DNA of 62,619 nt from Reinekea blandensis MED297 (lineage in GTDB: Bacteria > Pseudomonadota > Gammaproteobacteria > Pseudomonadales > Natronospirillaceae), in assembly GCF_000153185.1 (NCBI RefSeq), contig NZ_CH724153.1:34251-96869 (forward strand), written 5' to 3'. Both the position numbers and the translations under genes were made by a program. Under the pieces are notes generated by a model. That model had not been told where the DNA came from, ran no database searches, and was given only the letters and a program-made list of their open reading frames with translations. Below, piece by piece: positions 24,055 to 60,617 of the stretch (within the stretch, counting starts at the first letter, position 1; every line of letters starts with the position of its first letter).

Positions 24055-24918
24055 TCAGGCGCTGGGGCCAGCGACTGCGATTGCGCCCTTAGCAACGCCT
24101 TCAAACGCTTTGACCTTCCAGTAATCTTCCGGGAACTCGTTGGCGAGCTGTTCGGCCAGATGGGTGGCGATCAGTTCTACGGTGGTGTCCGTGGCCATGG
24201 TGTAGCACTGGTTCGGGTTGAGCCAGACATCAAAGCGCCCCTGTTCAGCGTCGTAGCCAACGTGCGTCAGGCCTTCATAATCCGAGGATAGAGCATCTTC
24301 GGCCGTAATCAGGTAGATGTCGGCGAAGGTGTTCGCCCATTGTGCTTCGGCTTCAACATCCCGTTTGTTATTACGGTAGATTTCAATGCGTGAGCGGTGC
24401 CCATGGCAGATCCGCTGGCAGTCGCCCTGATGTTTTTTCAGCCCGTGCGAGTAATGGTAATAGTCGCCGTCAATGCGTTCGGTGCGCAGGTTCAGTGACA
24501 CATGCGAGACGTTATCCGGGACCAGGTTGTTCAGGTGGGTTTCCAACAGCGGCCGGGCGCTGTCGATGGAAACATCGGCGCTGTCGATCATAAACACCGC
24601 TTCGCGGGGGCTTTCATAGGCGAAGGCCAGGGTTTCAGAGTCTGGACGATAGTCGATGCGCACGCGTTCCTGAATGGTGTCTTCCTCAATGGTCAGACCT
24701 GGCAGTTGGGTCGGCACAACCAGCGTGTGGTCCATGCCTTCATCAATGGCCTGTTTGAGCAGTTTTTTGACATGGCCGAAGTCGAACACCATGCCTTCAT
24801 CGTTCAGCTCGCCGTCAAGCTCCACATCGACAATCCAGCTTTCGCCGACCACCCCGCGGCGTGGGTGAAAGTAACTGAAATCAATGACAGTGAGGTTGTC
24901 GACGAATAATCGGTTCAT
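24055..24918 (-). CDS. Double-domain 6-pyruvoyl-tetrahydropterin synthase-like protein
   Basis: 287 residues made of two PTPS/QueD-type domains. The first (about 1-120) keeps the FDFGHVKKLL and MDHTLVVP elements but lacks the Cys and HGH zinc signature. The second (about 135-285) has DCQRICHGHRSRIEI, with the catalytic Cys and the His-x-His zinc pair. So one composite active site per protein is likely. Family enzymes act in queuosine (QueD) or folate/pterin pathways. No queuosine genes are adjacent, so the pathway is uncertain. Confidence 0.8.
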   Translation of the reverse strand: MNRLFVDNLTVIDFSYFHPRRGVVGESWIVDVELDGELNDEGMVFDFGHVKKLLKQAIDEGMDHTLVVPTQLPGLTIEEDTIQERVRIDYRPDSETLAFAYESPREAVFMIDSADVSIDSARPLLETHLNNLVPDNVSHVSLNLRTERIDGDYYHYSHGLKKHQGDCQRICHGHRSRIEIYRNNKRDVEAEAQWANTFADIYLITAEDALSSDYEGLTHVGYDAEQGRFDVWLNPNQCYTMATDTTVELIATHLAEQLANEFPEDYWKVKAFEGVAKGAIAVAGPSA

Positions 24919-25067
24919 GAGCGGTTTTCTCTTACAGACTTAGATGCGTGTGGTTTGGCACCGGCGGACGTTGGTTTCCGCATACAACGTCAGTATAGCC
25001 GGGCGGCGAAGTCTATCAGAAAAGCGCCGCAGTGGGAGCCATTTGCATTTAAAAGTTGACTATGTGG

Positions 25068-25604
25068 TTATGTTTTCAGGGTGAGGCGACTGATGCTGGC
25101 ATAGTGGACGGGTGTGGACAGTTCCTGTTGCCACGACTGTCCGAGCAACAGAGCACGGCACAGGCGGATGACGCCAGCGTGGGTAATCACGACCACAGTC
25201 TGGTCCTGCGGGAGCTCATTCAGGGCTGAAGTGACCCGTTCTCGGAATGCGTGCAGAGACTCGCCCTCGGGAAATTCAAAATCGGTGGGTGTTTGAGCCC
25301 AGGCATCAATCGCATCGCGCGGCAGATCGTCCCAACGTTGCCCTTCCCAGGTGCCGAAGTTCACCTCCTGCCAGCGGTCATCCGCTTGAACGGGGTTTGC
25401 TGGGTAGATTGCCTGAGCCAATTTGGCACAGCGCTGCAGCGGGCTGGTAACAATCACATCGGGCTGGGCCGGCAGCTGGGCGCGCAGTCTGTTGGCGGTT
25501 TCGGCATAGGGCACTTCACTGGCTAAATCGGTTTGCCCGTAGCAGATGCCCGGCGCGTGAACCCGATCATGTCGCACCAGATAGAGGGTCACAGTGCCAG
25601 CCAT
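25068..25604 (-). CDS. cobC: Histidine phosphatase, probable alpha-ribazole phosphatase (CobC)
   Basis: 178 residues of the branch-1 histidine phosphatase fold: LVRHD near residue 10 (the phospho-accepting His), SPLQRC, and the second catalytic THAG. The usual RHG is RHD here. Position at the end of a cobS-cobT-cobU run argues for CobC, which removes the phosphate from alpha-ribazole-5'-phosphate or cobalamin-phosphate. The MAGTVTLYLV start overlaps cobS by 16 bases; an earlier ATG at 25631 would extend the overlap. The CobC assignment rests on context. Confidence 0.78.
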   Translation of the reverse strand: MAGTVTLYLVRHDRVHAPGICYGQTDLASEVPYAETANRLRAQLPAQPDVIVTSPLQRCAKLAQAIYPANPVQADDRWQEVNFGTWEGQRWDDLPRDAIDAWAQTPTDFEFPEGESLHAFRERVTSALNELPQDQTVVVITHAGVIRLCRALLLGQSWQQELSTPVHYASISRLTLKT

Positions 25605-26326
25605 GTCAAGATTAAACCTACTTCGAGCCATTGTTGACCGGCGCCCAGGGTGTCACCGGTATAGCCACCAATTTGCCGGTAGCAGAGCCAGAGCCAAACC
25701 GCCGTGAGCAGTGCCGCCGAGAGTAACAGGGTCATCATTGTGATTGGGGGCCACAGGGCAAAGGCAGGCGTCAGAACCAACCCGCTCAGCAGCCAGCGGC
25801 CGAAGGACAGCTGTTGAACCACGGGCTTGGCTTTCGACGCTTCGGTTTTGGCGTAGCGTAACCAGATCATGGCGCTCATTGCGCCCCAGCGGCTGAGTCC
25901 ATGCAGCAACAGAAAGACCAGTACGCCGGCCACTTCGACCAGTTCAATCAGGGCAAGAGCTTTTAATGTCAGTACTGCCCACAAGGCCAGACTGCCATAG
26001 GTGCCAAGCCGTGAGTCGGTCATAATGCTCAGTTTTTTCTCGCGCTCAAACGCACCACCGAAGCCATCAAAGGTATCAGCCCAACCGTCTTCGTGAAACG
26101 CACCGGTCATCAGAAAGCCACAGGCCAGTGTGACTATGACGGCTACAGGTGTTGACCAAAGCATCATGGCCAGCAGGCAGATCACTGCCAGCGCTCCGCC
26201 GACGAGCACACCGATCAACGGAAAGTAAACTGCAGACCGTTTCAGGGCGGTTTCGCTGAAGTTCGGGTGTGCCGGCACCGGTATGCGGGTGAAATAGCCT
26301 ACCGCTAGCAGGAAGTCGTGAATCAT
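25589..26326 (-). CDS. cobS: Adenosylcobinamide-GDP ribazoletransferase
   Basis: 245 residues, multi-pass membrane protein. The diagnostic GAFHEDGWADTFDGFGG and MTDSRLGTYG motifs are present, and the C-terminus has GGYTGDTLGAGQQ. It joins activated alpha-ribazole to adenosylcobinamide-GDP, the last step of cobalamin assembly, at the inner membrane. It overlaps cobT by 4 bases. Confidence 0.95.
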   Translation of the reverse strand: MIHDFLLAVGYFTRIPVPAHPNFSETALKRSAVYFPLIGVLVGGALAVICLLAMMLWSTPVAVIVTLACGFLMTGAFHEDGWADTFDGFGGAFEREKKLSIMTDSRLGTYGSLALWAVLTLKALALIELVEVAGVLVFLLLHGLSRWGAMSAMIWLRYAKTEASKAKPVVQQLSFGRWLLSGLVLTPAFALWPPITMMTLLLSAALLTAVWLWLCYRQIGGYTGDTLGAGQQWLEVGLILTWLAL

Positions 26327-27333
26327 CCGCCGCTGACTCCGGCATCAGCAAAGGTCGCCATCTCATTGAGCATGGCCACCGCATTTTTGACCAGAGGGTA
26401 GGCCAGTGCGGCCCCTGAACCTTCGCCTAGACGCAGGCCTAAATCCAACAACGGTTGGGCGTTCAGCGTGTCGAGTACGTGCCGATGCGCAGGTTCGGCG
26501 GAACGGTGCGCAAACACGCAGGCCTCGACGGTGCCGGGCTGGCGTTTTTCAGCCACCAAGGCGGCAATTGTAGCGATAAAGCCGTCAATTAATACCGGCC
26601 TATGCGTTTCGGCTGAAGCCTGAATCGCGCCGACCATGGCTGCAATTTCAAAGCCGCCGAGTTCCATTAAGCATTGATCGGCTGAGTGGGAAGCGCACCG
26701 TGTCGCTGCTTGACGGACTACGGTGATTTTCCGGTCCAGGGTTGCCGAATCGGCGCCGGTGCCGGGTCCGACGGACTGTTCGGGAGGGAGCTTAGTCAGT
26801 GCGGAAAGCAGCGCCGAGGCACTGGTGGTATTGCCAATACCCATCTCACCGATGATGAGCAGATTATGCCCGGCTTCGAATGCTTCTGTAGCCAGTTGAT
26901 GCCCGGTCGACAGTGCCTGTTCGCATTGTTCGGCCGTCATCGCGGCGCCTTTGGCCAGGTTGGCGGTTCCTGGCGCCACGGCCGCATGCAGCACCTCCGG
27001 CCAGCGCGCGTCGCTGTTCACGATGCCCATGTTGACGATGGTTAGATCGATACCGTTGGTACGGCAAAACACATTCATCGCGGCACCGCCCGTGGCAAAG
27101 TTCGCCAGCATTTGTTCCGTCACCACTTGCGGAAACGGGTTAACCCCTTCCGCGCAGACGCCATGGTCCGCGCCAAAAACAAAGGCCTTGGGTCGGCTTA
27201 CGTCCGGTGTTTCGGTCTGTTGAATCAGTCCGATCTGTTTGGCCAGGGCTTCGAGCTGCCCAAGCGCACCGGGTGGTTTGGTTTTCTGGTCGATGTTCTG
27301 TTGTAAGCGGGTGGCTAAATCTGACGGGGTCAT
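26323..27333 (-). CDS. cobT: Nicotinate-nucleotide-dimethylbenzimidazole phosphoribosyltransferase
   Basis: 336 residues. Characteristic segments KTKPPGALGQLE, FGADHGVCAEGVNPFPQ, GEMGIGNTTSASAL and the C-terminal GEGSGAALAYPLV are all present. It makes alpha-ribazole phosphate from 5,6-dimethylbenzimidazole. The start at 27333 has AAAGGA at the right distance; a longer frame to 27372 would overlap cobU more deeply. It overlaps cobU and cobS by 4 bases each. Confidence 0.95.
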   Translation of the reverse strand: MTPSDLATRLQQNIDQKTKPPGALGQLEALAKQIGLIQQTETPDVSRPKAFVFGADHGVCAEGVNPFPQVVTEQMLANFATGGAAMNVFCRTNGIDLTIVNMGIVNSDARWPEVLHAAVAPGTANLAKGAAMTAEQCEQALSTGHQLATEAFEAGHNLLIIGEMGIGNTTSASALLSALTKLPPEQSVGPGTGADSATLDRKITVVRQAATRCASHSADQCLMELGGFEIAAMVGAIQASAETHRPVLIDGFIATIAALVAEKRQPGTVEACVFAHRSAEPAHRHVLDTLNAQPLLDLGLRLGEGSGAALAYPLVKNAVAMLNEMATFADAGVSGG

Positions 27334-27863
27334 TGAATGTCCTTTGTTCGTATGTCTGTGCCTTTGAGCCACTGAGGCAAGCCGACGATACTCATCACGA
27401 CGTGGCTGGCTTTCCGGGCGACGGACTGGTTCAGTAAACCAAGTTCATCTATATAACGGCGGGTCAGGGCATCCGCGCCGATGATACCGAGGCTGGACTC
27501 ATTGGAGACCAGCACCGTGGCGGCACTGCGCTGGTCCAAAGCCTGTAAAAATTGCAGTATCGCCTCCTCCATTTGCTCAGGGGTTTCGATCAGCAGATTG
27601 GTCAGCCAGACACCCAGACAGTCGACCAGAACCGGTTGCGAACAACGAATGAGTGCATCGGCGAGATGAAGCGGGGTTTCGATGGTTTGCCAGCGCTCAT
27701 CGCGGTCGGCGATGTGCCGGTCAATGCGTGCGCTCATCTCGCTGTCGGTACGGCGAGCCGTGGCGATCAGGGTAGGCGTGGGAGTGAGATGGGTCAGGCA
27801 ATCGGCGGCCAATCGGCTCTTTCCCGACTTGACGCCACCGGTGACCAGAATCAGTTCAGGCAT
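27330..27863 (-). CDS. cobU: Adenosylcobinamide kinase / guanylyltransferase
   Basis: 177 residues: a Walker A loop GGVKSGKSR near the N-terminus, IATARRTDSEM, VDCLGVWLTNLL and SNESSLGIIG, all typical of CobU/CobP. It phosphorylates adenosylcobinamide and transfers GMP to it. The ATG at 27863 gives the normal length; an in-frame TTG at 27914 would add 17 unlikely residues. First gene of the leftward cob operon. No cobalamin riboswitch is evident upstream. Confidence 0.92.
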   Translation of the reverse strand: MPELILVTGGVKSGKSRLAADCLTHLTPTPTLIATARRTDSEMSARIDRHIADRDERWQTIETPLHLADALIRCSQPVLVDCLGVWLTNLLIETPEQMEEAILQFLQALDQRSAATVLVSNESSLGIIGADALTRRYIDELGLLNQSVARKASHVVMSIVGLPQWLKGTDIRTKDIQ

Positions 27864-27987
27864 AGGCAGTCTGTAAAAAGCGAACACAGTAAGGTCATTT
27901 GCTTGCCGACGCAACGCATGTGGTCACACCTCAAAACTCATTTGCAATCTCGACTATACTGAGGTCGATTCACGACGGGAACCCAAC

Positions 27988-30218: not shown

Positions 30219-30812
30219 TCAGACAGCCATCATCGGGGCTATCGATAACACCAACAACGACGCCATGGTGACATTAAACAGGCGCTGTTTTCGAGCATCA
30301 TGTAACAGACGACGCAGTGACTCACCAGCCACCAACCAACAGCCAACACAACACAGACCAATAGGCAGAAATGTCAATGCAATGGTCAGAATCTGTGGCG
30401 TCAGGCTGATCTCTGCCACGGTGAAGCTGGCCACCGCACTGAGAACCATCACCCAGGCCTTCGGATTCACCCACTGGAACGCAGCGGCCTGTACATAGGT
30501 CATCGGTGGGTTGTTGGTTTGTGGACCCTGACGGACTTGAGTCGTCGCGATTTTCCAGGCCAGAAACAGCAGGTAACTGATTCCGGCGACTTTTAAGATG
30601 GTGAACAGAATCGGCCATTGCTGGAACAGCTGATCCAGGCCAAAGCCAACGGCGAGAATCATGATGGGGACACCGGTACAGATGCCGAGCAGGTGCGGCA
30701 GTGAACGCCGCACCCCGTGGTTCAGACCAGAGGCCAAGATCATCAGATTGTTCGGACCGGGTGTACCGGTGGATGCAATGGCGAACAGAATGAGAGACAG
30801 GTTCAGGCTCAT
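30219..30812 (-). CDS. LysE/RhtB family amino-acid exporter
   Basis: 197 residues with six helices. The N-terminal GTPGPNNLMILASGLNHG motif is the family signature, and FQWVNPKAWVM is also typical. It exports amino acids or analogues across the inner membrane. The start overlaps the preceding DUF1127 gene by a few bases, so they form an operon divergent from the MocR regulator, which probably controls them. Confidence 0.9.
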   Translation of the reverse strand: MSLNLSLILFAIASTGTPGPNNLMILASGLNHGVRRSLPHLLGICTGVPIMILAVGFGLDQLFQQWPILFTILKVAGISYLLFLAWKIATTQVRQGPQTNNPPMTYVQAAAFQWVNPKAWVMVLSAVASFTVAEISLTPQILTIALTFLPIGLCCVGCWLVAGESLRRLLHDARKQRLFNVTMASLLVLSIAPMMAV

Positions 30813-30814
30813 GG

Positions 30815-31015
30815 TCAGCACCAGTCCGTTGTTTTCAGTTGTTTTTCCGGTGCGGCGTAGTGGCCGATGTCACGTTGCAACTCAGGACTCAGGTCTTGCA
30901 GCGTGCGATGTTGGCGACGTGCCTGCGCGTTCCGGGCCATGCGAATCAGCCAGTTCGGTGCCGAGATGCGCACTGAAACGGTGAGGGTATTGGATGAAGC
31001 GGTTAATGTGGTCAT
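30815..31015 (-). CDS. DUF1127 family small protein
   Basis: 66 residues. The C-terminal half carries the DUF1127 (YjiS-like) motif RRQHRTLQDLSPELQRDIGH. The frame extends upstream to 31192, but AAAGGA sits directly before this ATG. DUF1127 proteins are short arginine-rich proteins, some RNA-binding and active in phosphate or metabolic control. Coupled with the LysE gene, and divergent from MocR. Confidence 0.82.
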   Translation of the reverse strand: MTTLTASSNTLTVSVRISAPNWLIRMARNAQARRQHRTLQDLSPELQRDIGHYAAPEKQLKTTDWC

Positions 31016-31106
31016 GTCCTTTCCTCGCATGGGTTGTTGACGGAGAACACAGCGTACCGGTAAGGTGTGTTCCGGTACAGATTCAACAAACCTGAGTTTA
31101 AATAGA

Positions 31107-31161
31107 TACAGATTGATCTGTACCGGTCTTCTGGCCCCATTATTTCCAATAACTGTACTGG
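31107..31161. promoter_or_regulatory. Repeat cluster, probable MocR regulator operators
   Basis: TACAGATTGATCTGTA (31107-31122) is a perfect palindrome. CTGTACCGG (31118-31126) and CTGTACTGG (31153-31161) are direct repeats 35 bp apart, and an inverted copy CCGGTACAG lies at 31072-31080. Direct repeats are the usual binding pattern of MocR/GntR-aminotransferase regulators, and these lie between the regulator and its divergent targets. Confidence 0.55.
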
Positions 31162-31168
31162 TGTGACT

Positions 31169-32596
31169 ATGGAAACGTTGCTTTATGCCCAACTGGCCGA
31201 CACGCTGATCGCACAGATCCGTGGCGGTGTTTATAAGGTCGGCGACCGCTTGCCATCGGTCCGCTCGCTGTCAAAACGGGAGCAAGTCAGTATCGCGACC
31301 GTTAACTCGGCGTACGCCATTCTGGAGGAACGGGGTTGGGTCGAAGCTCGTCCTAAATCGGGCTATTTTGTGCAGCGGGCCCAGTCGGTTCAGATCGGCA
31401 AACCGCGAACCGGCGAAGTCACGTCGAAACCGCGTGCGGTTTCCACTAAAGAACTCGCATTGGAAGTGCAGCGCGAGGCGTCCATCACCCGCTCACGTAA
31501 CTTCAGTTGCGCCATTCCGGATCTGCAACTGTCCATCGCTGCCGTGATTCAGAAAACCCTGACGCGACTGTCCCGGCAGGGAACGGCACTGGGGCAGGGT
31601 TACGACAGCACCGAGGGGCTGTTTGAACTGCGCCAGCAGGTGGCAAGACGCGGCATTGATGGCGGTGTGCATGTATCGCCGGATGCCATCATCACGACCT
31701 TGGGAGCGCAGAACGCCATCTCCCTGGCGTTGCGTGCTGTAACCAAACCAGGGGACATCATTGCTGTGGAGTCACCCTGTTACTTTGGCTTGCTGCAGAT
31801 GATTGAAGCGATGGGTTTGAAAGCCATTGAGATCCCGGCCGATGCCGAAACCGGGATGAGTGTCGATGCGTTAAAACTGGCTGTGCAGCAATGGCCGATT
31901 AAAGCCATTTTGTGCATCTCAACCTTTTCCAATCCGCTGGGCTGTACCATCCCTGATAATCATAAACAGGCTATCGTTAATCTCGCTGTCCGTCATGATC
32001 TGTGCATCATCGAAGACGACATCTACGGCGAGTTGCAGTTTGACGGCCCACGACCTAAAACAATTAAAGCCTTTGACCCCGATGGCCGGGTGTTGTGGTG
32101 TTCATCGGTGTCAAAAACCATGGACCCTCAACTGCGAGTCGGGTGGATTGCGCCGGGCCGTTACTATGACGAGGTGTTGCGACAGAAATACACCAACTAT
32201 CTCGCAGCGCCAAGTTTACCGCAGGCGGTCACTGCCGAGGTTATGTCGAAAGGGCTCTACGATCGTCATCTTCGACAGGCGCGGCTGGCGTACAAACAAC
32301 GCAGTGAACAGATGCTGGATCTTGCCGAACGATATTTCCCGCAGGAAACGTTGGCCAGTCGCCCCAAAGGCGGCTTAGTCACCTGGTTTGAAATGCCTCG
32401 CCGGCTGGACATGACCGAGTTGTATCACCAGTGCCGTGATCTGGACATTCGTATCGCACCGGGCGAGCTGTTTTCAGTGTCCGGCCTGTATCGAAACTAC
32501 TTTCGTTTGAACTACGCCAATGAATGGACGCCTGCACGCGAGCAGGCCGTTCAATCCATTGGCGATACGTTGAAGTCCATGTTGGTGTCGCGTTAG
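31169..32596 (+). CDS. MocR-type regulator (GntR DNA-binding domain plus PLP aminotransferase fold)
   Basis: 475 residues. An N-terminal GntR winged helix (YKVGDRLPSVRSLSKREQVSIATVNSAY, about 23-50) is joined to a fold-type I aminotransferase domain with GYDSTEGLFELR, TLGAQNAISLAL, the STFSNPLGCTIP substrate loop and SSVSKTMDPQLRVGW, whose Lys should bind pyridoxal phosphate. It is divergent from the DUF1127-LysE pair, which it likely controls in response to an amino compound. I used the ATG at 31169; a GTG two codons earlier is in frame. Confidence 0.9.
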   Translation: METLLYAQLADTLIAQIRGGVYKVGDRLPSVRSLSKREQVSIATVNSAYAILEERGWVEARPKSGYFVQRAQSVQIGKPRTGEVTSKPRAVSTKELALEVQREASITRSRNFSCAIPDLQLSIAAVIQKTLTRLSRQGTALGQGYDSTEGLFELRQQVARRGIDGGVHVSPDAIITTLGAQNAISLALRAVTKPGDIIAVESPCYFGLLQMIEAMGLKAIEIPADAETGMSVDALKLAVQQWPIKAILCISTFSNPLGCTIPDNHKQAIVNLAVRHDLCIIEDDIYGELQFDGPRPKTIKAFDPDGRVLWCSSVSKTMDPQLRVGWIAPGRYYDEVLRQKYTNYLAAPSLPQAVTAEVMSKGLYDRHLRQARLAYKQRSEQMLDLAERYFPQETLASRPKGGLVTWFEMPRRLDMTELYHQCRDLDIRIAPGELFSVSGLYRNYFRLNYANEWTPAREQAVQSIGDTLKSMLVSR

Positions 32597-33528: not shown

Positions 33529-34698
33529 TTACAGTATGGCCTCTTCCAGCGGATAGGTGGAGAGCAGTTCCGGTCCGTTTTCCGTCATCAGAATCTGCTG
33601 CTCCAGCTTCACACCTTCACGTCCGCCGACTTCTCCGGCAAAGCTTTCCACGCAGAGCACCATACCGGCTTCGATCTGCCCCTCAATGCCGCCGTCGTCC
33701 CAAAGGTGCGGTGCCACAATGAGCGGGTATTCGTTACACAGGCCAATGCCGTGCGCGATTGCGGAGTTGGTGCGTTCGGCAAACCGTTCCGGCAGTGACC
33801 AGCTTTTTTCCGCAACTTCCTGAAAACTGATACCGGGCCGGAACAGTTCGATGTTGCGGGCCACCTGTTCATACGCGGCCGAATAGAGCGCGCGTTGTTC
33901 GGAGGTGGGCTGACGATCACCGGTGACCCACGAGCGTGATATGTCCGCCGAATAGCCGTGCGCGCCAATCAGGTCGGTATCGAAAGAGACCAGATCGCCG
34001 TTTCCAATTTCCCGATCTGAGCATTCCTGATACCAGGGATTGGTGTTAGGGCCGGAAGTCAGCAACCGGGTTTCAATCCATTCCCCGCCATGTTCAATGT
34101 TAGCCTGATGCAGGTACGACCAGAGCTTTTGTTCGGTGATGCCGGGTTGCAGGTTCTGGTGCATCAGCGTCATGCCTTTTTCGCAGTTGCTAATGGCTGC
34201 GCGCATGGCGATCATTTCCTGCGGGGTTTTAATCATGCGTGCGCGGTTGATTACCTGCTGTCCGTCACTGACCTGAACGCCCCGTTGGTTCAACGCTGCC
34301 ACGCCGATCGGGTCGAGCCGGTCAACGGCCAGCCGCTTACCTGGCAACAGGTCGGCAATTTCGTTGGCCCATTGGTTTGCCTTTTCGTCAACGCGGTTAC
34401 CGACAATGAAGTGATACCAGGCCACCGCATTGCGGATGTCACCAATGGCTGGCTTGTTCGTCAGCAGGTGTTCGCATCCGGCAAATTCAAACATAACGGC
34501 TTTGCCCTCGGCAGGAACCAGCGCATAACGACAGGGGTTGTGCAGTCCGTACACCTGCATATTGCTTGAGCCGGTGGCGTAGCGGATGTTGGTTGGGTCG
34601 TACAGCAGGATTGCCTCAACATCCTGTTGCTGCATTTGCTCTTGCAGCCGGTTCAGTCGTTCCAAATCCAGTTTGTGTGGGTTCAACGCTGTGCTCAT
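33529..34698 (-). CDS. DddP-like M24 family metallohydrolase
   Basis: 389 residues: an N-terminal creatinase/prolidase-like domain (about 1-150) and a pita-bread domain. The segment GGEWIETRLLTSG..NPWYQE and FDTDLIG..ADISRSW is strikingly like DMSP lyase DddP, not ordinary aminopeptidases. Metal ligands Asp240, Asp242, Asp252, His316, Glu351 and Glu366 line up at a constant offset of 55 with those I recall from Ruegeria DddP (295, 297, 307, 371, 406, 421). But the position of catalytic Asp377 is Asn322 (GIGLCNEYP). So a metal-dependent hydrolase or lyase on another small substrate is likely. Last gene of a four-gene operon; overlaps the oxygenase by 4 bases. Confidence 0.82.
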   Translation of the reverse strand: MSTALNPHKLDLERLNRLQEQMQQQDVEAILLYDPTNIRYATGSSNMQVYGLHNPCRYALVPAEGKAVMFEFAGCEHLLTNKPAIGDIRNAVAWYHFIVGNRVDEKANQWANEIADLLPGKRLAVDRLDPIGVAALNQRGVQVSDGQQVINRARMIKTPQEMIAMRAAISNCEKGMTLMHQNLQPGITEQKLWSYLHQANIEHGGEWIETRLLTSGPNTNPWYQECSDREIGNGDLVSFDTDLIGAHGYSADISRSWVTGDRQPTSEQRALYSAAYEQVARNIELFRPGISFQEVAEKSWSLPERFAERTNSAIAHGIGLCNEYPLIVAPHLWDDGGIEGQIEAGMVLCVESFAGEVGGREGVKLEQQILMTENGPELLSTYPLEEAIL

Positions 34699-35579
34699 CG
34701 GATCAGCCCGTCCTTTGATTGATGACGCTCTGCAAGCAGATGCGCTTCCGATACCCGGCCGTAAAGCTGCCGGGTGCGTTCCACTGGTCCGATGACGCCC
34801 GGGTGTTTCGCGTATGCCATCACCGCCGTCAGTCGGGTTTGTTGCCCTTGCACGCGAGAGACCTGATGCAGCGAATAGCGCCCACGAAACATTTGCAAAT
34901 CGCCGGGGTTCAGCGTCAGGGTTTTAATTCTGGAAGGCAGACGGTCTCGAATCACCTCGCTCACTTCGCTTAAGTTCTCATTCCCGGGCGTGCGGATGCC
35001 CGGGCAATACTGAAACTCGCCGCCGGTGTCGGCGGCTTGGGTCATGATGGTGGTAATGAACTCGTTGGAATCGTAATGCCAGGGCTGATACGCCTCCGGT
35101 GGCATGGTGTTCACCACCAACCCGGCGAACGGATCGGCATACTCATACACTTCCGGCAGTTGGTTACAGGCGGCCACTAACTGTTTTAACCCGGGCGATA
35201 CATACAGCCGTTGCAATGCGGTGTCAGCCGGAATGGTATCGCGGGTGACAAAACCGCTGCTGCGTTCAAAAAAGATCTGTCGCGGATCATGCTCAGGCAA
35301 AGATGCATCGGGTTCGCTGTTGTAGATGTTGCATTCACGCCGTTGAAAAAAGGCTTTATCCGCCAATGCGTTGGTTTCGGCTCGCAGTTGTTTTAAGCCA
35401 TCGGCTGTAATGAACTCCGGCAGCACGGCACAGCCGTCTTTGTCGAGATGTTCACGCACCTGTTTAACCAATGCACGCCATGGTTCGCTTTCGGGGTCAT
35501 CAATCGGGTAACGCTGCAGGTCGACCAGATCAGCCAGATCGGTCGTGCCGGCGTCTGCAAATTTTAAAGCCGTCGACAT
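34695..35579 (-). CDS. Fe(II)/2-oxoglutarate-dependent oxygenase (ArpA/BesD-like)
   Basis: 294 residues. Iron triad His168, Asp170 (WHYDSNEF) and His238 (LHQVSRV), with Arg249 placed to bind 2-oxoglutarate. The region KTLTLNPGDLQMFRGRYSLH is typical of the family that hydroxylates or halogenates free basic amino acids. The presence of Asp170, rather than Gly, points to hydroxylation and not chlorination. AGGAGAG precedes the ATG. It probably hydroxylates the substrate that the neighbouring M24 enzyme then cleaves, or the reverse. The substrate is unknown. Confidence 0.82.
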   Translation of the reverse strand: MSTALKFADAGTTDLADLVDLQRYPIDDPESEPWRALVKQVREHLDKDGCAVLPEFITADGLKQLRAETNALADKAFFQRRECNIYNSEPDASLPEHDPRQIFFERSSGFVTRDTIPADTALQRLYVSPGLKQLVAACNQLPEVYEYADPFAGLVVNTMPPEAYQPWHYDSNEFITTIMTQAADTGGEFQYCPGIRTPGNENLSEVSEVIRDRLPSRIKTLTLNPGDLQMFRGRYSLHQVSRVQGQQTRLTAVMAYAKHPGVIGPVERTRQLYGRVSEAHLLAERHQSKDGLIR

Positions 35580-35627
35580 ACTCTCTCCTGTTTCGGCCTG
35601 TGGGCAGGCTCTGGTTTGGGTCGGGTT

Positions 35628-36410
35628 TTATAGGGTTCGGTTCAGGGCTGAAAATCGAGTGGCCAGCGCGCGATAGTCGCGCGGGCGTGTGGCGTTAAAG
35701 CCCAGCAGCAGTAATGCATCACGGGTGGCCTCATCGAGTGACGCCATGGCATCGACCACTGCGTTGTGCAGCCGGTGCAAGGCGTCCGGGGAGCGCAGGG
35801 CGCTGATCATTGGCAAACCGGGTGTCTGTTGCGTTCGGCGTAATACCCGCACCCGATGAGTAGCCGGTTCGTGTCGGCAGGCGATTTCCCAGGTGACGGC
35901 ATCAATGCCGGCGACATCCGCCTCACCGTTGGCGACGCAGTGAATGGATGTACGGTGACTGCCGGTCATCTTCAGCGTGAGCGAATTTGGCAGAGTTGTA
36001 GACGCTTGTTGAAAGGCCGTCATCGGTGCCGAAAACCCGGATTGTGAACCACCTTCATTCACGGCAAAGCAAGCGCCGGTCAAGTCCGTCAGTGTTTCGG
36101 TGTCGGCATTGGCCGGCACGATGAGCACGCTGTGGTATTGCCCCGCGCTGGAGGGAATATCGTAACTGGGTGTGCCGACTAATCCGACGCGATCGTGCAG
36201 CATGCGGCTGTAGGGTAAACCGCAAGTCTGGCTCAACAGCAGATCGGGGTGTTGCCAGTGCGCCATCAGGTCGGTTGGTGTACTGAGCATATTGGCGGGT
36301 GTAAAGCCGGCGGCGCTCAGAGCGTCCCGCAGATGGTTTCCAAACGTTGTGGTTGCGGGCGTTAATTCCGGCCAGTCGTACATGGGCAACGCGATGGTTG
36401 TTGGTGTCAC
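35628..36410 (-). CDS. PhnD/SsuA-type substrate-binding protein lacking a signal peptide
   Basis: 260 residues beginning MTPTTIALPMYDWPE from a GTG that overlaps the desaturase stop (GTGA). A periplasmic-binding-protein fold related to phosphonate binders: HPDLLLSQTCGLPY, HSVLIVPANAD, GGSQSGFSAP, ADVAGIDAVTWE. There is no export signal, so it would stay in the cytoplasm unless secreted otherwise. This subgroup occurs widely without transport genes. A much longer frame upstream overlaps the desaturase and is not used. Possibly a sensor or metabolite-binding partner in this operon. Confidence 0.8.
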   Translation of the reverse strand: MTPTTIALPMYDWPELTPATTTFGNHLRDALSAAGFTPANMLSTPTDLMAHWQHPDLLLSQTCGLPYSRMLHDRVGLVGTPSYDIPSSAGQYHSVLIVPANADTETLTDLTGACFAVNEGGSQSGFSAPMTAFQQASTTLPNSLTLKMTGSHRTSIHCVANGEADVAGIDAVTWEIACRHEPATHRVRVLRRTQQTPGLPMISALRSPDALHRLHNAVVDAMASLDEATRDALLLLGFNATRPRDYRALATRFSALNRTL

Positions 36411-37357
36411 AGGGCGCCCTCCCGATCTGCATCGAAATGCGTTGGGGGTGAAGCTGGGGTAACGGTCGCTTGTGTTGGTAACCCTGAGACTAATGGATAC
36501 ACCACCGGTTCTTTGCGTCGGAACGCATAGCTCCGCCAGATGGCACGGTAATTGGGGTAATGATAGTGCCGGTTCAATGCCAGAAAGCGCCCACGGTTGC
36601 GGGCAAATAAGTCTGGCAGATCGTACCAGGCAACATTTGGGTAGGCATGGTGTACTGCGTGCAGATTGTTGTTCAGAAACAGCAGGCTGAACCAACCTTG
36701 GTCTTCGATTAACACCGTGCGTGCGCGAGGGTCTTTATCGGCCTGATGTTCGAGAAAGGTTCGAACCGTCAGCAGGCCATAGCCACCATAAGCGGCCAGC
36801 AGATACGTCCAAACGGGCAGGCCAGCCAACAGGTTGAGGCCGGTCAGCAACAGCGCAACGGCGAACAGATGCTTTATCCAAACCCAACGGGCACCAGGTT
36901 GTGTCCAATCCGACCTCACAAAGGTGGGCAGGCCGATGAACGGGCCTAGCACTACGCGCCCGGCGAGTGTGTTGTTGGCCGTCAGAAGGGTTTTCATGAG
37001 CCGGGAATGCCCACGCCAGTTGTTTGGGGTCAGGTACCAGCTTTCCGGGTCATCACCGGGGACCGTCAGTTCGGCCTGATGGTGGTGCCGGATATGGGCG
37101 CGTTTAAACCGCAGGTAAGGAATGAACAACCCGATGGGCACAGACACCAGCGCATCATTTAAGGGTTGGTTATTGAACGGGTGGCCGTGCAGGCATTCGT
37201 GTTGAAGTGACGAATGTAACGTGATCAGCGGTATCAGTAACAGGACCTGCAGGCCCAATGGCAGGTTAACGGGGTTCCACACCAGCAAGCCCCAACCGAG
37301 GTAAACGGCAACCAGTAAGAACAGGGTGCGCCACTCAGACGGATGTCGTAATCCCAA
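36407..37357 (-). CDS. Membrane fatty-acid-desaturase-type di-iron enzyme
   Basis: 316 residues. Three histidine boxes are complete: HECLHGH (53-59), HIRHHH (88-93) and HAVHH (233-237), and four or so TM helices flank them. Family enzymes desaturate or hydroxylate lipids, carotenoids or small amines. The TTG at 37357 follows AAAGGAG at 8 bases; an earlier TTG at 37381 lacks such a site. First gene of the leftward operon with the PhnD-like protein, oxygenase and M24 enzyme. Two oxygen-using enzymes in one operon suggest stepwise oxidation of one compound. Confidence 0.83.
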   Translation of the reverse strand: MGLRHPSEWRTLFLLVAVYLGWGLLVWNPVNLPLGLQVLLLIPLITLHSSLQHECLHGHPFNNQPLNDALVSVPIGLFIPYLRFKRAHIRHHHQAELTVPGDDPESWYLTPNNWRGHSRLMKTLLTANNTLAGRVVLGPFIGLPTFVRSDWTQPGARWVWIKHLFAVALLLTGLNLLAGLPVWTYLLAAYGGYGLLTVRTFLEHQADKDPRARTVLIEDQGWFSLLFLNNNLHAVHHAYPNVAWYDLPDLFARNRGRFLALNRHYHYPNYRAIWRSYAFRRKEPVVYPLVSGLPTQATVTPASPPTHFDADREGAL

Positions 37358-37431
37358 TCGATGGTCTCCTTTCGTCTTCAAGGACCGCCATTAGAACGAT
37401 GGAAGGGTTTCTGGACAATGCGAGAATTTGC

Positions 37432-37443
37432 ACATTAAAATGT
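37432..37443. promoter_or_regulatory. Candidate operator between XRE regulator and desaturase operon
   Basis: ACATT-AA-AATGT is a short inverted repeat in the AT-rich divergent intergenic region (37358-37477). It is the only obvious symmetric site there and could be bound by the adjacent XRE regulator. Confidence 0.35.
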
Positions 37444-37477
37444 CAATACACTACAGAAACATAATTTGTTAATTAAA

Positions 37478-38365
37478 ATGAAAAATGGTGTGAATACACA
37501 ACAATCGGATTTTAAGCTGGCCGATAAGCGCGACATTGCCGACGTTTTCCGCGCGCGCATGGCTTTGCTGATTTCTCAGCATGGGTTCAATCTCAGCCAG
37601 TTTGCCAAGGCCGTCGGCATTGACCGATCGGCGCTCAGCCAGTTTCTGATGCCCGACGCTGTGCGTCTGCCGAGGGCCGAAACGCTGTTTAACATCGCGC
37701 AATATTGCGGTGTCTCCGTGGACTGGCTGTTGGGGAAGGTCTCCGGGGAGAGTGACCGGGACGATTTGATTCCCGTGGTCGAAACCCTGCGCATGTCCGG
37801 CGAGGAAGCTCAACAGAAACTCGCCAGCTGGCATCGGGAAGCACGCGGTTACAAGATCCGCTACATCCCCAGCACTATCCCGGACCTGCTGCGCATTCCG
37901 GAAGTCAGCGATTTTGAGTTTAAGGATCAGGACCTGGCCATTCGCGCCGCACAGGATCGCATGGCGCGCGAACAGCTCGACCGCACTCCGTTTCCCGAGA
38001 CCGATATCGAAGTCTGCATGCCCATTCAAACGCTGGAGCATCTGGCGGGTGGGCAGGGCATCTGGAAAACACTGCCGAAAGCGATTCGAAAACGGCAGTT
38101 AGAACACATGCAGGCTTTGGTTGAGCGGTTTTATCCGACTTATCGGTTGTTTCTGTACGACGGTCATACCGCCTTTTCGTCACCTTATACCCTGTTTGGA
38201 CCGATTCAGGCGGCGATTTATCTGGGGAACATGTATCTGGTGGTGCATTCGGTGGAACACATCCGCGCCATGACAGGACACTTCGATCGGTTGATTCGCC
38301 ACGCGCAGATAACGCCGGACCGGGCTGCCGACACCATTGGTGAGATTCTGACAACGTTGCGGTAG
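37478..38365 (+). CDS. XRE-family transcriptional regulator
   Basis: 295 residues. An N-terminal helix-turn-helix (ALLISQHGFNLSQFAKAVGIDRSALSQFL, about 25-60) is followed by a DWLLG segment and a long C-terminal domain (about 110-295) rich in aromatic residues that may sense a ligand. It is divergent from the desaturase-PhnD-oxygenase-M24 operon and is its probable regulator. The ATG at 37478 lacks a strong ribosome site; a TTG four codons earlier is also in frame. Confidence 0.8.
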   Translation: MKNGVNTQQSDFKLADKRDIADVFRARMALLISQHGFNLSQFAKAVGIDRSALSQFLMPDAVRLPRAETLFNIAQYCGVSVDWLLGKVSGESDRDDLIPVVETLRMSGEEAQQKLASWHREARGYKIRYIPSTIPDLLRIPEVSDFEFKDQDLAIRAAQDRMAREQLDRTPFPETDIEVCMPIQTLEHLAGGQGIWKTLPKAIRKRQLEHMQALVERFYPTYRLFLYDGHTAFSSPYTLFGPIQAAIYLGNMYLVVHSVEHIRAMTGHFDRLIRHAQITPDRAADTIGEILTTLR

Positions 38366-41985: not shown

Positions 41986-42873
41986 TCAAGCGGCCATGCG
42001 CTCATATTCTATTGGTGAGTAGTACTCGATTCCTGAGTGCAGTCTCACCCTGTTATAAAATTGATTTATATACCGACCCATCTCGCGACGCAAATGATCG
42101 ATGCCGTTGAAGAGCTGATTTCTAATAAGCTCGCCTTTCAATGAATGATAAAACGACTCCATATACGCATTGTCAGTACAGTATCCGGGACGATTGACAC
42201 TGTGCTCAATTCCGGCCTTTGACAGTGCCGACTGAAAATCAGACGCGGTAAATTCAACGCCACGATCCGTATGCAGGATCACACCTTCGGTGTGCCGGCC
42301 TTTCCGTATCGCGTAATTCAGTGCAGCTAAAGTTAGTTCGGTTGTTCGCGTATGAGACAGAGACCAACCCAGAATCCTACGGGAATGTCGGTCCATAATT
42401 GTCGCTAAATAAGTCCATTGGTGACTCAGTTTGATATAGGTAACATCGGCAACCCAAATTTGGTCACAAGCTATGGTGCCACCAAACTGAAGCAACTTAT
42501 TCTCCCCTCGGTTTTTAAACCGTTTCAGCCCCGGTTGCCGCCGAGTCACCAAGGTGACTCTGGCCTTAAGCCCATTGTCACGCATCAGCCGCGCCACACG
42601 CTTTCTAGAGACTTGAACACCCTGTCGAGCCAGAGTTTTATGCACTCTCGGGCTGCCATAGCGTCCAGAGCTCTTATCAAACACCTGGGTAATGTCTTTT
42701 AGTAGCGTCTGATCGGATCGCTCTCGTTGCGATGGTTCCCGGTCAGCCCAGGCATAGTAACCGCTTCTCGAGACGCCAAGCCAACGGCACAAGGCCGCTA
42801 TTGCGAACTCTTTTTTGTATCGGTGGATGAATCCAAATCGTTCTGATGAACTTCCGCCAGATACTGTTGCCAC
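41986..42873 (-). CDS. IS3-family transposase OrfB (DDE integrase core)
   Basis: 295 residues from the GTG at 42873. It contains HTH_21-type CRWLGVSRSGYYAW near 28 and the rve core with the DDE triad: CDQIWVADVTYI, HTDRGVEF and NAYMESFYHSLKGE. It is likely made mainly as an OrfAB fusion by -1 frameshifting on AAAAAAG (42873-42879), where OrfA codons TTA-AAA-AAG give the canonical slip. No disabling stop is seen. Confidence 0.93.
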   Translation of the reverse strand: MATVSGGSSSERFGFIHRYKKEFAIAALCRWLGVSRSGYYAWADREPSQRERSDQTLLKDITQVFDKSSGRYGSPRVHKTLARQGVQVSRKRVARLMRDNGLKARVTLVTRRQPGLKRFKNRGENKLLQFGGTIACDQIWVADVTYIKLSHQWTYLATIMDRHSRRILGWSLSHTRTTELTLAALNYAIRKGRHTEGVILHTDRGVEFTASDFQSALSKAGIEHSVNRPGYCTDNAYMESFYHSLKGELIRNQLFNGIDHLRREMGRYINQFYNRVRLHSGIEYYSPIEYERMAA

Positions 42874-56049: not shown

Positions 56050-57159
56050 TCAGATATAAACGCGTGGGTTGCGCTGGCCCCACTCGGCGTAGATGTCGGC
56101 CATGATGGTATCGGCCTGCATTTCAATGCGTTTGATGTCGATCTTGCCGGTGCCCTGATGGCCGAAAATCACCACCTCATCTTCAACCTCAACGACGGGG
56201 ATGTCCGTTACATCGGCCACGATGGTGTTCATCGACACCTTGCCCAAAACCGGCACCAGTTGGCCGCGGATTAACACATGGCTGCGACCGAAATAGTTGC
56301 GCCGGAAGCCATTCGCATAACCGAGGGCAATGTTCGCCACACGGCTGTCGCGGGTCAGTGTCGTGGTGCGGTCATACCCAATGGTGCTGCCTTGCGGATA
56401 GGTGGTGATGTTGGTGATTTGAGCCTTTAGCTGCATGGTGTGTTCAAAGCCCAGTTCGGGTTTGAGAATGCCGTAAAGGATGGCACCGCAGCGATAAAAA
56501 TCGGTTTCGATGGGCGTTGATGAAATCAGGCTTAATGAACTGCCGGCGTGGACATTCACCTGCTCGCGCTTCAAGGCTGTGTTGCTGAAAATCCAGTTGA
56601 GATCAGAGCGGAAATGCTGATCGCTCAACTGCAAGTCCTGCTCCGAACCCGAAGGATGATGAGTGCAGATGCCAACGATCCGATCGCCGAGTAGATCGAC
56701 AATGCGCTGACAGGTGTCGTGTCCATCTCGTTCATTGAGTTCCAATCCATCCCGTGACATTCCGCCGGCGTTTATGGCGAGATGCACGCCCTCACTGTGC
56801 TCAGTCAGCGAATCAATCACCTCAGCGGTATACAGACTGCTGACCTGTTCTTGTACCCGGTCGGCAACAGCGCCTGCGATTTCGCTGGGCGTTGCCGTGC
56901 GCAGACGCAGTATCGTTCCTTCGAACCCGGCTTCGCGAACTAAGCGGGCTTCGGCGTTTGACGTAATGCCCACGGTCTTGATGCGATGTTCGCAGACGAT
57001 GGCGGCCACTTCGGCAATGCCATGACCGTAGGCATCGGCTTTCAGTACGGCGCAGAACTCGGCGTGTTCCGGCAACAGTGACAGCGCCAGCGACAGGTTG
57101 TTCGCGATGCGATCGGTCAGTATTTCGCACCAGGCCGTATGAATAACGTCAGAACTCAT
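56050..57159 (-). CDS. Alanine racemase-fold, broad-spectrum-type amino-acid racemase
   Basis: 369 residues. PLP-binding Lys40 in VLKADAYGHG; catalytic Tyr262 in TIGYDRTTTL. INAGGMSRDGLEL and GKVSMNTIVADVTD resemble broad-spectrum racemases (Bsr) more than biosynthetic Alr, which has MD at that point. Unlike periplasmic Bsr it has no signal peptide. Lying last in an operon with an amino-acid ABC importer and an M20 amidohydrolase, it probably interconverts D- and L-forms of an imported amino acid for catabolism. Adjacent to the M20 gene with no gap. Confidence 0.87.
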   Translation of the reverse strand: MSSDVIHTAWCEILTDRIANNLSLALSLLPEHAEFCAVLKADAYGHGIAEVAAIVCEHRIKTVGITSNAEARLVREAGFEGTILRLRTATPSEIAGAVADRVQEQVSSLYTAEVIDSLTEHSEGVHLAINAGGMSRDGLELNERDGHDTCQRIVDLLGDRIVGICTHHPSGSEQDLQLSDQHFRSDLNWIFSNTALKREQVNVHAGSSLSLISSTPIETDFYRCGAILYGILKPELGFEHTMQLKAQITNITTYPQGSTIGYDRTTTLTRDSRVANIALGYANGFRRNYFGRSHVLIRGQLVPVLGKVSMNTIVADVTDIPVVEVEDEVVIFGHQGTGKIDIKRIEMQADTIMADIYAEWGQRNPRVYI

Positions 57160-58320
57160 TTACTTGCCAGTGTCATTCGCCAACGTGGTGTCGATGATTT
57201 CCAGCAGCAGTTCCGCACCAATGCCGATGAGCTCATCGGGAAAGTCATAATCCGGGTTGTGCAGCTGCGGTTGGTCGGTACCGGCACCTAAAAACAGCAT
57301 GGTGGCGTTGGCTCCGTCCAGGCTGAAGTGACCAAAGTCTTCCGACCAGGACATCGGGTTTGGCATGTCGTACAGGGTGAGCTGTCGTTTTTTGACCGCC
57401 ACTCTTGAAATGTCTGTTGATTGAACCTGGTTCGTACCCGCGGGAAACACATCGTGCCAATGCACTTCGGTGGTAATGACCGGGTCGACTTCATCGATCA
57501 ACCCCTGAATGGTAGAAATCATTTCATTCATCCGGTCATCGGTTTTACTGCGCAACGTTACCCGCAGTTCCCCTTCACCCGGAGCGACACCAAACGTCGG
57601 CCTACCGAGGTTGGCGTAGGTTAGAGTGCAGAGCCCGTAATCGTCATCGTTGATCGATCCGCTGCTGAGGGTTGGAATGGTTTGCATCAGATCGGCCATG
57701 GCAGAACCCGGTGATACTCCATCTTCCGGTTTTGCCGCATGCGAGCTTTTGCCATGAAAGTTAATCTGCATGCCACGCGAAGCGCAGGTTGCTGTACCGT
57801 CACTGATGCCGACTTCGCCTAAAGGACGGCCGGGTGCGTTGTGATATGCAAAGGCATAGTCCGGCCGTATGTCGGGCCATCGGGGATCACTGATCACGGC
57901 TTGTGCGCCGGCACCGGTTTCTTCAGCCGGTTGGAACAACAGGATAACGCGACCGTGACTGGGCCGTTGTGCCAGGCCGAGTGCGACGCCCAGTACAATG
58001 CTCATGTGCCCGTCGTGACCGCAAAGGTGGCCTTTACCATGGCAGGCCGAGCGATAAGCCAGCTCGGATTTTTCAGTAATTGGTAAAGCATCCAACTCGC
58101 AACGGAACAGCAACGTCGGGCCGGGCTGGTCGCTTTTAAACTCGGCGGCCACGCCGTAGCCACCCAGCCCTTGCCAGATCCGATCAGCGCCGGCGTTGGT
58201 CAACTCCTGAACGATGCGTTTTGCGGTCTGTTCTTCTTCACCTGAAATTTCAGGATGCTGATGAAGGGCGTGCCGGACGTCAGTCAGATACGCCAATTGT
58301 TCTGCAGTTAGAGTTCTCAT
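57160..58320 (-). CDS. M20 family amidohydrolase
   Basis: 386 residues. Two-metal site: CGHDGH (about 103-108), the catalytic EETGAG, and AYHNAPGRPLG. A dimerisation lid domain follows (FHGKSSHAAKPEDGVSPG). The M20D group hydrolyses N-acyl amino acids, as in hippurate, IAA-amino-acid and N-acetyl-ornithine type reactions. Its operon includes a polar amino-acid importer and a racemase, so the imported substrate may be an N-acylated amino acid. Start at ATG 58320; a GTG two codons earlier is in frame. Confidence 0.9.
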   Translation of the reverse strand: MRTLTAEQLAYLTDVRHALHQHPEISGEEEQTAKRIVQELTNAGADRIWQGLGGYGVAAEFKSDQPGPTLLFRCELDALPITEKSELAYRSACHGKGHLCGHDGHMSIVLGVALGLAQRPSHGRVILLFQPAEETGAGAQAVISDPRWPDIRPDYAFAYHNAPGRPLGEVGISDGTATCASRGMQINFHGKSSHAAKPEDGVSPGSAMADLMQTIPTLSSGSINDDDYGLCTLTYANLGRPTFGVAPGEGELRVTLRSKTDDRMNEMISTIQGLIDEVDPVITTEVHWHDVFPAGTNQVQSTDISRVAVKKRQLTLYDMPNPMSWSEDFGHFSLDGANATMLFLGAGTDQPQLHNPDYDFPDELIGIGAELLLEIIDTTLANDTGK

Positions 58321-58341
58321 AGTCACAGCTCGCAGTTGTCT

Positions 58342-59121
58342 TTAAGAGCGAAGGTGTTTACGGAGAAAGCTTTGCGTGCGCTCCTGTTCGGGGTTGCTGA
58401 ACAGTTTTTGTGGGTCGTCTTCTTCGACAACAACGCCGCCATCCATAAACATAGCCCAGTCGGACACATCGCGGGCAAAGCCCATTTCGTGCGTCACAAT
58501 CAACATGGTCATGTGTTCTTCGGCAAGACCGCGCATCACCAGGTTCACTTCTTCCACCAGTTCGGGGTCAAGCGCAGACGTTGCCTCATCGAACAGCATC
58601 ACCTTCGGTTCCATGGCCAGCGCTCTGGCAATGGCGACGCGCTGTTTCTGGCCGCCGGACAACCAGTTTGGAAATACATCGGCTTTTTGTGCAAGCCCGA
58701 CGCGATCGAGTAAGTCCATACCCCATTCGCGGGCTTTTTTAGGGTCCATACCTTTCAGTTTTCGCGGTGCCAAAGTGACGTTGTCGATCGTCGACAGGTG
58801 CGGAAACAGATTAAAATGCTGAAACACCATGCCCATGTTCTGACGAATATGGTTGATGTGCTTTTCGAAGGCGAGACCTTTCAGGTCGGGCCGGTTCACT
58901 CTGGCGCCATCAAGGGAAATTTCTCCCTGATCAATCACCTCCAGATGATTCACCGAGCGCAGCAAGGTGCTTTTGCCTGAGCCGGACGGTCCGATAATTG
59001 AAATGATTTTGCCGCGATTGACGGTCAGGTTGATGCCTTTAAGAACTTCTAAGTCGCCAAATCGTTTGTGGACATTCCGAATTTCAACCATCGGAGTCTC
59101 TGTTTGATGTTCAGTAGTCAT
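58342..59121 (-). CDS. Amino-acid ABC transporter ATP-binding protein
   Basis: 259 residues. Walker A GPSGSGKST, Q-loop VFQHFNLFPH, signature LSGGQKQR, Walker B VMLFDEATSALDPE and the switch His in VTHEMGFARD. It is of the polar-amino-acid (GlnQ/HisP) type and powers import through the two permeases downstream in coordinates. In transcription order it comes after them. Confidence 0.95.
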   Translation of the reverse strand: MTTEHQTETPMVEIRNVHKRFGDLEVLKGINLTVNRGKIISIIGPSGSGKSTLLRSVNHLEVIDQGEISLDGARVNRPDLKGLAFEKHINHIRQNMGMVFQHFNLFPHLSTIDNVTLAPRKLKGMDPKKAREWGMDLLDRVGLAQKADVFPNWLSGGQKQRVAIARALAMEPKVMLFDEATSALDPELVEEVNLVMRGLAEEHMTMLIVTHEMGFARDVSDWAMFMDGGVVVEEDDPQKLFSNPEQERTQSFLRKHLRS

Positions 59122-59156
59122 TAGTTCTTCGACTCTCTCAGTAATGGGTTAGGGGT

Positions 59157-59810
59157 TTAACGACGGTAGGCCGTTAACCGTTCCAGCCAAACCTGGCCGA
59201 GTTCCATAAACACGTTGATGATGTAGTACATGATCGCGATGACGATGAAGAACTCAAACGGACGGAAAGACACGCTGATAGCGTACTGCGATGCATAAAC
59301 CAGTTCGGCTACGCCAATGGCAGAAAGAACCGAGGTGTCTTTGACCATCAGGATCATGTTGTTCCCGATCTGTGGAATTGACCGGATAAACGCCTGAGGA
59401 ACGAGGATGTAAAAAATGGTCGCCGTATGTCCGAAGCCGAGCGATCGGGACGCTTCGTATTGGCCGTCTGAAACCGACTTTAAGGTGGCGACAAAGATAT
59501 CGGCGTTGTACGCCATGTAGTGAAAACCCAGCCCGAGTATGCCCACCACAACCGCAGGTATCAGTACCCATTCTCCGATACCGAAGTAAAGCAGATAAAG
59601 CTGTAGTAACAGCGGTGTGGTCATAAACAGCCAGATGAAAAACCGCAACGGCCAGCTCAACACCTTGTTGATGTAGACTGAAATGACGGCAACCAACAGA
59701 CCACCCAGAACGGACATCAAGGCGACGATAATGGCAACAAAGATGGCCACGCCCAAGCCTTTCATCAGCGTCGGGAAATAGGTAATGACCGGTGTAAAAT
59801 CAAACTCCAT
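59157..59810 (-). CDS. Amino-acid ABC transporter permease
   Basis: 217 residues with about five TM helices and the EAA loop EASRSLGFGHTATIFYILVPQAF. HisM/GlnP type, works as a heterodimer with the neighbouring permease, 11 bases upstream. The ectoine transporter (EhuCD) is one close type, but specificity is not readable. Confidence 0.93.
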   Translation of the reverse strand: MEFDFTPVITYFPTLMKGLGVAIFVAIIVALMSVLGGLLVAVISVYINKVLSWPLRFFIWLFMTTPLLLQLYLLYFGIGEWVLIPAVVVGILGLGFHYMAYNADIFVATLKSVSDGQYEASRSLGFGHTATIFYILVPQAFIRSIPQIGNNMILMVKDTSVLSAIGVAELVYASQYAISVSFRPFEFFIVIAIMYYIINVFMELGQVWLERLTAYRR

Positions 59811-59821
59811 GTCTCGACTCC

Positions 59822-60478: not shown

Positions 60479-60617
60479 GGACTTACCTTTTGAACCTGGT
60501 CACCGGTCGAGCCAACGCAGGTTGGCGATCGACGGTGAATCGTTAACGAGTAACCGGTAGAGCACGGCGCTGATCTTTAACCATCTCAGTGGTCATGATC
60601 AACGCCTTAGTGTGTGC

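Follow-up and report, generated by a model that had tools for sequence, protein, structure and literature searches.

The window analysed here, a stretch of 62,619 nucleotides from Reinekea blandensis MED297, carries between positions 33529 and 38365 a cluster of five genes, all recovered at these coordinates by open reading frame calls and Pfam, in agreement with a preliminary description of this DNA. Four of them are read leftwards on the minus strand. DES (36407-37381, TTG start) encodes a membrane oxygenase of the di-iron type belonging to the desaturase superfamily, with three histidine boxes (Pfam FA_desaturase, 9.3e-35); PHND (35628-36410, GTG start) a PhnD/AioX-like binding protein (Phosphonate-bd, 2.1e-22); OXY (34695-35579) an oxygenase of the iron/2-oxoglutarate (Fe/2OG) type from the HalD/BesD superfamily (HalD, 3.9e-12), with an intact HxD...H motif and R249, which we take to be its Fe/2OG residues; and M24 (33529-34698) a DddP-like metalloenzyme of 389 amino acids (Peptidase_M24, 1.4e-31). 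The fifth gene, XRE (37466-38365), lies on the plus strand, divergent from DES, and encodes a helix-turn-helix regulator with a conserved C-terminal domain (HTH_3, 5.7e-7). As previously described, 4-base overlaps occur at two junctions, DES/PHND and OXY/M24; PHND and OXY are separated by a spacer of 48 bases, and AGGAGAGAG precedes the OXY ATG. A second in-frame TTG of DES at 37357, found behind AAAGGAG, is a likelier start than that at 37381, and the first in-frame ATG of XRE is at 37478.

The strongest new fact is that DES and PHND are near-obligate partners. Their distribution was surveyed in one sample of 398 genomes of the same phylum (397 without that of R. blandensis). DES was found in 47 of the 398, with a weakest E value of 1e-83, and PHND in 62 at E <= 1e-25. 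Of these, 48 are at E <= 1e-35; the next weaker matches begin at 3e-31 and, in our reading, resemble ordinary PhnD proteins. Among the 397 other genomes, 46 hold both genes (11 families), none holds DES only, one holds PHND only (G548) and 350 hold neither, giving a Fisher p of 1e-59 with kinship disregarded. The two genes are likewise both present or both absent within genus g337 (G505 versus G509 and G583), genus g61 (G569 versus G080, G624 and G669) and genus g354 (G807 versus G613). They are at most 5 kb apart in 25 of the 46 genomes and separate in 21, and the link is therefore more than one of map position. Because both are found together in 46 of the 47 genomes holding either, it is very probable that DES and PHND must work together. 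It should be noted that a plasmid of Rhizobium beringeri (L166) carries the desaturase gene with no PHND inside the fetched stretch.

PHND had been described as a binding protein without an export signal, and indeed no such signal was seen, by eye or by hydropathy, in the window protein or in its aligned homologues (eight were aligned, one of which, from L008, is cut at its N-terminus). When the PHND profile was compared with solved proteins, the best match was AioX (6esk, 2.6e-27), followed by ArrX (6.9e-17) and PhnD (5e-9), and the score against the NCBIfam model of the PhnD binder of phosphonate ATP-binding cassette (ABC) transporters (TIGR03431) was 59.9 bits for a cut-off of 261, which was not reached. 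PHND is thus closer to AioX and ArrX than to PhnD, and differs from the AioX, ArrX, PtxB and PhnD binding proteins by the missing export signal and by its partner, which is DES and not a phosphonate transporter. AioX and ArrX are sensors, not transport proteins. In L143, L148, L163 and L169-L174, PHND gave two separate profile matches about 90 bases apart, resembling an insertion in the N-terminal half. Regarding DES, both the Pfam match and the histidine boxes place it in the desaturase superfamily, and its profile gave no match among solved desaturases at E up to 1. GntB, a desaturase-like arginine hydroxylase acting on a free cationic amino acid, shares the Pfam-type fold family with DES, but the match between them is very weak (19.9 bits, cut-off 380).

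As a whole, the cluster is seldom found and patchily distributed, yet not unique. G019, a genome of another genus of the same family, carries all five genes in identical order, so that the arrangement exceeds chance, and its proteins are 75% (M24), 73% (OXY), 54% (PHND), 59% (DES) and 76% (XRE) identical to those of the window. Within the family (22 genomes), two, each from a different genus, have the full set; DES occurs in these same two genomes, and neither OXY nor DES was found in the six other genomes of the window's genus. The five genes are consequently not adjacent in R. blandensis only, and parts of the set co-occur widely. Where the preliminary description saw a single pathway, the data resolve two modules, OXY-M24 and XRE-DES-PHND, mostly found apart. 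One conserved five-gene operon as a general rule was rejected, the full set being known from two genomes only. A literature search over titles and abstract openings, of partial coverage and not proving absence, found no account of the five-gene set or of the DES-PHND pair.

OXY is uncommon: at E <= 1e-40 the class has it in 12 of 369 genomes and the phylum in 23 of 398. In the window and in 13 of 34 external OXY loci, the gene directly following OXY on the same strand is M24; in L081, M24 is near OXY on the opposite strand, and the plasmid loci L082 and L087 provide two further OXY-M24 pairs. In a tree built from 38 OXY rows, linkage to M24 required 2 changes compared to a mean of 12.4 after shuffling (0 of 500 as low), a difference that near-copies inflate. 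The window and G019 were grouped with L056, L064 and L082 (support 97/99), and these three closest outside relatives adjoin sarcosine oxidase/DMGDH, choline-type and ProX-type genes. OXY-M24 pairs elsewhere are accompanied by a LysR-type gene instead of XRE (12 of 14 loci by phmmer matches, in a broad family). On the plasmid of Pseudomonas sp. MPC6 (L087, 3570-7878), two OXY paralogues, one of them paired with M24, lie either side of a LysR gene, with flavin oxidoreductase genes nearby. The single OXY relative in a collection of named genomes comes from SAR11 (L002, 7992-9628); it is 36% identical and overlaps a short-chain dehydrogenase/reductase gene, in a locus that also carries gamma-butyrobetaine dioxygenase and carnitine dehydrogenase genes. 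In a viral collection, 9 pattern stretches were retrieved for OXY and 58 for PHND, with no true relative among them.

OXY scored 46.5 bits against the HalD-type Pfam model PF23169, above the cut-off of 26, and the best solved relatives of its profile are HalB, HalD and lysine halogenases/hydroxylase (7u6i, 7u6h, 9oew, 7jsd), matched weakly (E 2e-4 to 0.05). The likeness to free-amino-acid hydroxylases mentioned in the preliminary description was thus found again, at the level of a distant membership of the Fe/2OG superfamily. Fe/2OG halogenases lack the iron-binding carboxylate; unlike them, OXY keeps the HxD motif in 34 of 34 rows, window included, and a halogenase function was rejected on this ground.

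The closest solved chains to M24 are those of DddP, a lyase of dimethylsulfoniopropionate (DMSP), with an E value of 3e-91 (PDB 4rzy, 4b28), and the resemblance extends over almost the full length, without the N-terminal extension of DddP. The DddP structure study (PMC4108388) lists Asp295, Asp297, Asp307, His371, Glu406 and Glu421 as metal ligands, and favours Asp377, otherwise Tyr366, as the catalytic base, both being said to be invariant. The six ligands are identical in 22 of 22 aligned M24 rows, window included. By contrast, both proposed catalytic residues are replaced by Asn in the M24 proteins of the window and of G019 (L008). Positions 366/377 are Tyr/Gly in 13 OXY-linked rows and Tyr/Asp in L081, L087, three DES-linked rows and two DddP chains. 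The score against the NCBIfam DddP model (NF043017), 381 bits, does not reach the cut-off of 600. M24 as a DMSP lyase acting by the published mechanism was rejected on these residues and this score, and DMSP-lyase-like chemistry, hinted at in the preliminary description by the resemblance to DMSP lyase, is not supported. Since the six ligands are kept and the catalytic pair is lost, M24 is probably an active two-metal enzyme with a chemistry other than that of DddP. DddP-like matches with Asn at both 366 and 377 should therefore not be tallied as DMSP lyases.

Of the 46 DES genomes, 28 have a member of the XRE family, compared to 0 of 34 other, hand-picked genomes; the gene stands beside DES in 21 of 40 fetched loci, and then in 6 of 6 further ones. 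One homologue shows a sub-threshold DUF5753 match in its C-terminal domain. A promoter-like site precedes XRE on the plus strand (37412..37441; TGGACA, 18 bases, TAAAAT) and has a counterpart in the aligned intergenic region of G019 (TAGACA, 18, TAAAAT). The promoter scan gave 1 site compared to 3.3 expected by chance, and the terminator scan 11 terminator-like sites compared to 5.8; scanned sites of either kind were never taken as evidence by themselves.

The genes around these modules in other genomes were surveyed with 13 marker proteins, the thresholds and queries being our own choice. Gene calls in the high-GC loci were crude, some of the chosen reading frames being on the wrong strand; the counts were based on profile or BLAST matches and not on these calls. 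Some neighbours (a carboxylase, a glutamine-synthetase-like gene, cobalamin genes) were named by eye. Markers of betaine, choline or carnitine metabolism were found in 9 of 14 OXY-M24 loci (6 of 11 when the loci that supplied the queries are removed), in 13 of 40 DES loci (9 of 36), in 2 of 21 OXY loci without M24 (0 of 19) and in 1 of 12 named plasmid loci. In Phaeobacter, and also in L135, L141 and L155, XRE-DES has carnitine genes as neighbours. Where PHND stands apart from DES, a same-strand ABC ATPase lies next door in 14 of 21 loci; that of L189 matched HisP best, below cut-off. Three binding proteins tested near separate PHND genes matched the lysine/arginine/ornithine family best, all below cut-off, and the PHND gene of L194 has a ProX-like gene on either side. 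What these neighbours have in common is a nitrogen compound that is cationic and often methylated; they do not single out one substrate. On a plasmid of Terrarubrum flagellatum (L167, 4555-9961), DES stands by PHND with ornithine cyclodeaminase-type, mandelate racemase-type and B12-binding genes according to annotation, a set that recalls betaine demethylation.

The XRE-DES-PHND module meets glycine-betaine demethylation genes in another family, f258, where 9 of the 10 DES genomes carry MtgE-like, XRE, DES, PHND, M24 and DMGDH-like genes in one block. MtgB was found in 7 of these 9 blocks; the other two were fetched as stretches that stop inside the DMGDH gene or shortly after it. Pfam naming, applied to one block (L171), gave S-methyl_trans, MTTB, DAO with GCV_T, M24, FA_desaturase and Phosphonate-bd. 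In PMC12478193, MtgBCDE is described as a set for glycine-betaine demethylation and methionine synthase, and the nine blocks resemble it in that XRE-DES-PHND-M24 stands amid mtgE-like, DMGDH-like and mtgB-like genes. The words "desaturase" and "peptidase" do not occur in the main text of that paper. R. blandensis differs in that one probe found no MtgB match in its genome, and Mtg-type demethylation was rejected for it on that single probe.

In the window itself, a DUF4386-like gene converges on M24 and ends 6 bases from it, and the cluster differs little in G+C content from the flanking MocR gene (56.3% and 55.5%). Next to the cluster (30219-32596) lie a LysE-type exporter gene on the minus strand and a GntR/aminotransferase MocR-type regulator gene on the plus strand, every NCBIfam score of the latter being under cut-off. 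Further away, genes named by eye resemble those of cobalamin (B12) salvage and assembly (CobU, CobT and CobS-like; 24055-27914), an IS3-type transposase (41986-42873, in a region of lower G+C, 0.42-0.44 at 40-45 kb) and, all on the minus strand, an amino-acid-type ABC transporter, an M20-type amidohydrolase and an alanine-racemase-like gene (56050-61406).

Taken together, we read the cluster, at a nearly even chance of being right, as an XRE-controlled operon for the oxidative breakdown of a small cationic nitrogen zwitterion, either a betaine or an amino acid that is methylated or basic. This compound would be imported by a transporter encoded elsewhere and bound in the cytosol by PHND, which would present it to the membrane oxygenase DES or sense it for DES; alternatively, PHND may report the ligand to XRE. 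OXY would then hydroxylate the zwitterion or its product, and M24, as a two-metal hydrolase without the elimination residues of DddP, would cleave the oxidised intermediate. Two oxygen-dependent steps are likely, given the three histidine boxes of DES and the Fe/2OG residues of OXY. The small zwitterion proposed in the preliminary description is supported as a class, through the betaine, carnitine and basic-amino-acid neighbours, but not as a specific substrate, and nothing speaks for a sulfonium compound; of its two directions, breakdown fits the neighbours better than synthesis. A bolder proposal, which we hold as doubtful, is that DES and PHND each supply one half of an undescribed oxygenase, in which the cytosolic binder would pass a small cationic metabolite, coming from any importer (of betaines or basic amino acids), to the membrane di-iron enzyme. 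In the window this pair would be joined to a second oxygenase and to a re-tooled DddP-type M24 enzyme, forming an O2-dependent route for betaine-like compounds in an organism where the known demethylases were not found.

Several points weigh against a breakdown operon of this kind. Its main weakness is that most DES loci, 27 of 40, lack a betaine marker; the marker is also missing from 11 of the 12 plasmid loci that are named. A single substrate for all PHND proteins is doubtful because their neighbours vary, the Fisher value takes no account of kinship, and the two modules are joined with OXY in two genomes only. The window cluster contains no transporter, demethylase or betaine gene, and in the R. 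blandensis genome one probe each gave no match for MtgB, no match for a Rieske oxygenase and, for DMGDH, a match in the GcvT region only. The same genome encodes three OpuAC-type binding proteins; import without the known demethylases would fit these results, each negative being that of one probe.

It is unlikely that the two modules are merely independent neighbours, OXY-M24 degrading a betaine-like compound and XRE-DES-PHND serving another purpose. The LysR-type gene that accompanies OXY-M24 elsewhere, the 48-base gap falling exactly at the module boundary and the rarity of joined modules among the 46 external DES genomes (M24 near DES in 9, OXY near DES in none) agree with such a separation, but not the identical order and high identity in two genera, nor the separate joining of M24 to XRE-DES-PHND in family f258. 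Synthesis, with two oxygenases and a hydrolase building a modified amino acid or another small natural product, is rather improbable: the OXY profile does match free-amino-acid halogenases and hydroxylases, and the very weak GntB match of DES points the same way, but the five genes include no carrier, ligase or exporter, and importers and catabolic enzymes are the neighbours elsewhere. We give an equally low probability to a lipid function, in which DES would be an ordinary acyl desaturase, XRE its regulator, PHND a sensor and the remainder incidental. The FA_desaturase match and the histidine boxes accord with it; it gives no reason, however, for the near-perfect co-occurrence with a cytosolic solute binder or for the catabolic neighbours, and the DES profile has no counterpart among solved desaturases. 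That M24 cleaves DMSP or a close analogue as DddP does is highly improbable in view of the Asn/Asn pair and the score below cut-off, even though DddP chains are its best solved relatives and the metal ligands are identical.

In soil and sea alike, betaines, carnitine and methylated amino acids serve as major sources of nitrogen and carbon, and to our knowledge several steps of their breakdown have no assigned genes. Existing annotations of the two partners are generic, "fatty acid desaturase" for DES and "PhnD/SsuA/transferrin family substrate-binding protein" for PHND. The pairing of DES with PHND makes the function of these two proteins testable.

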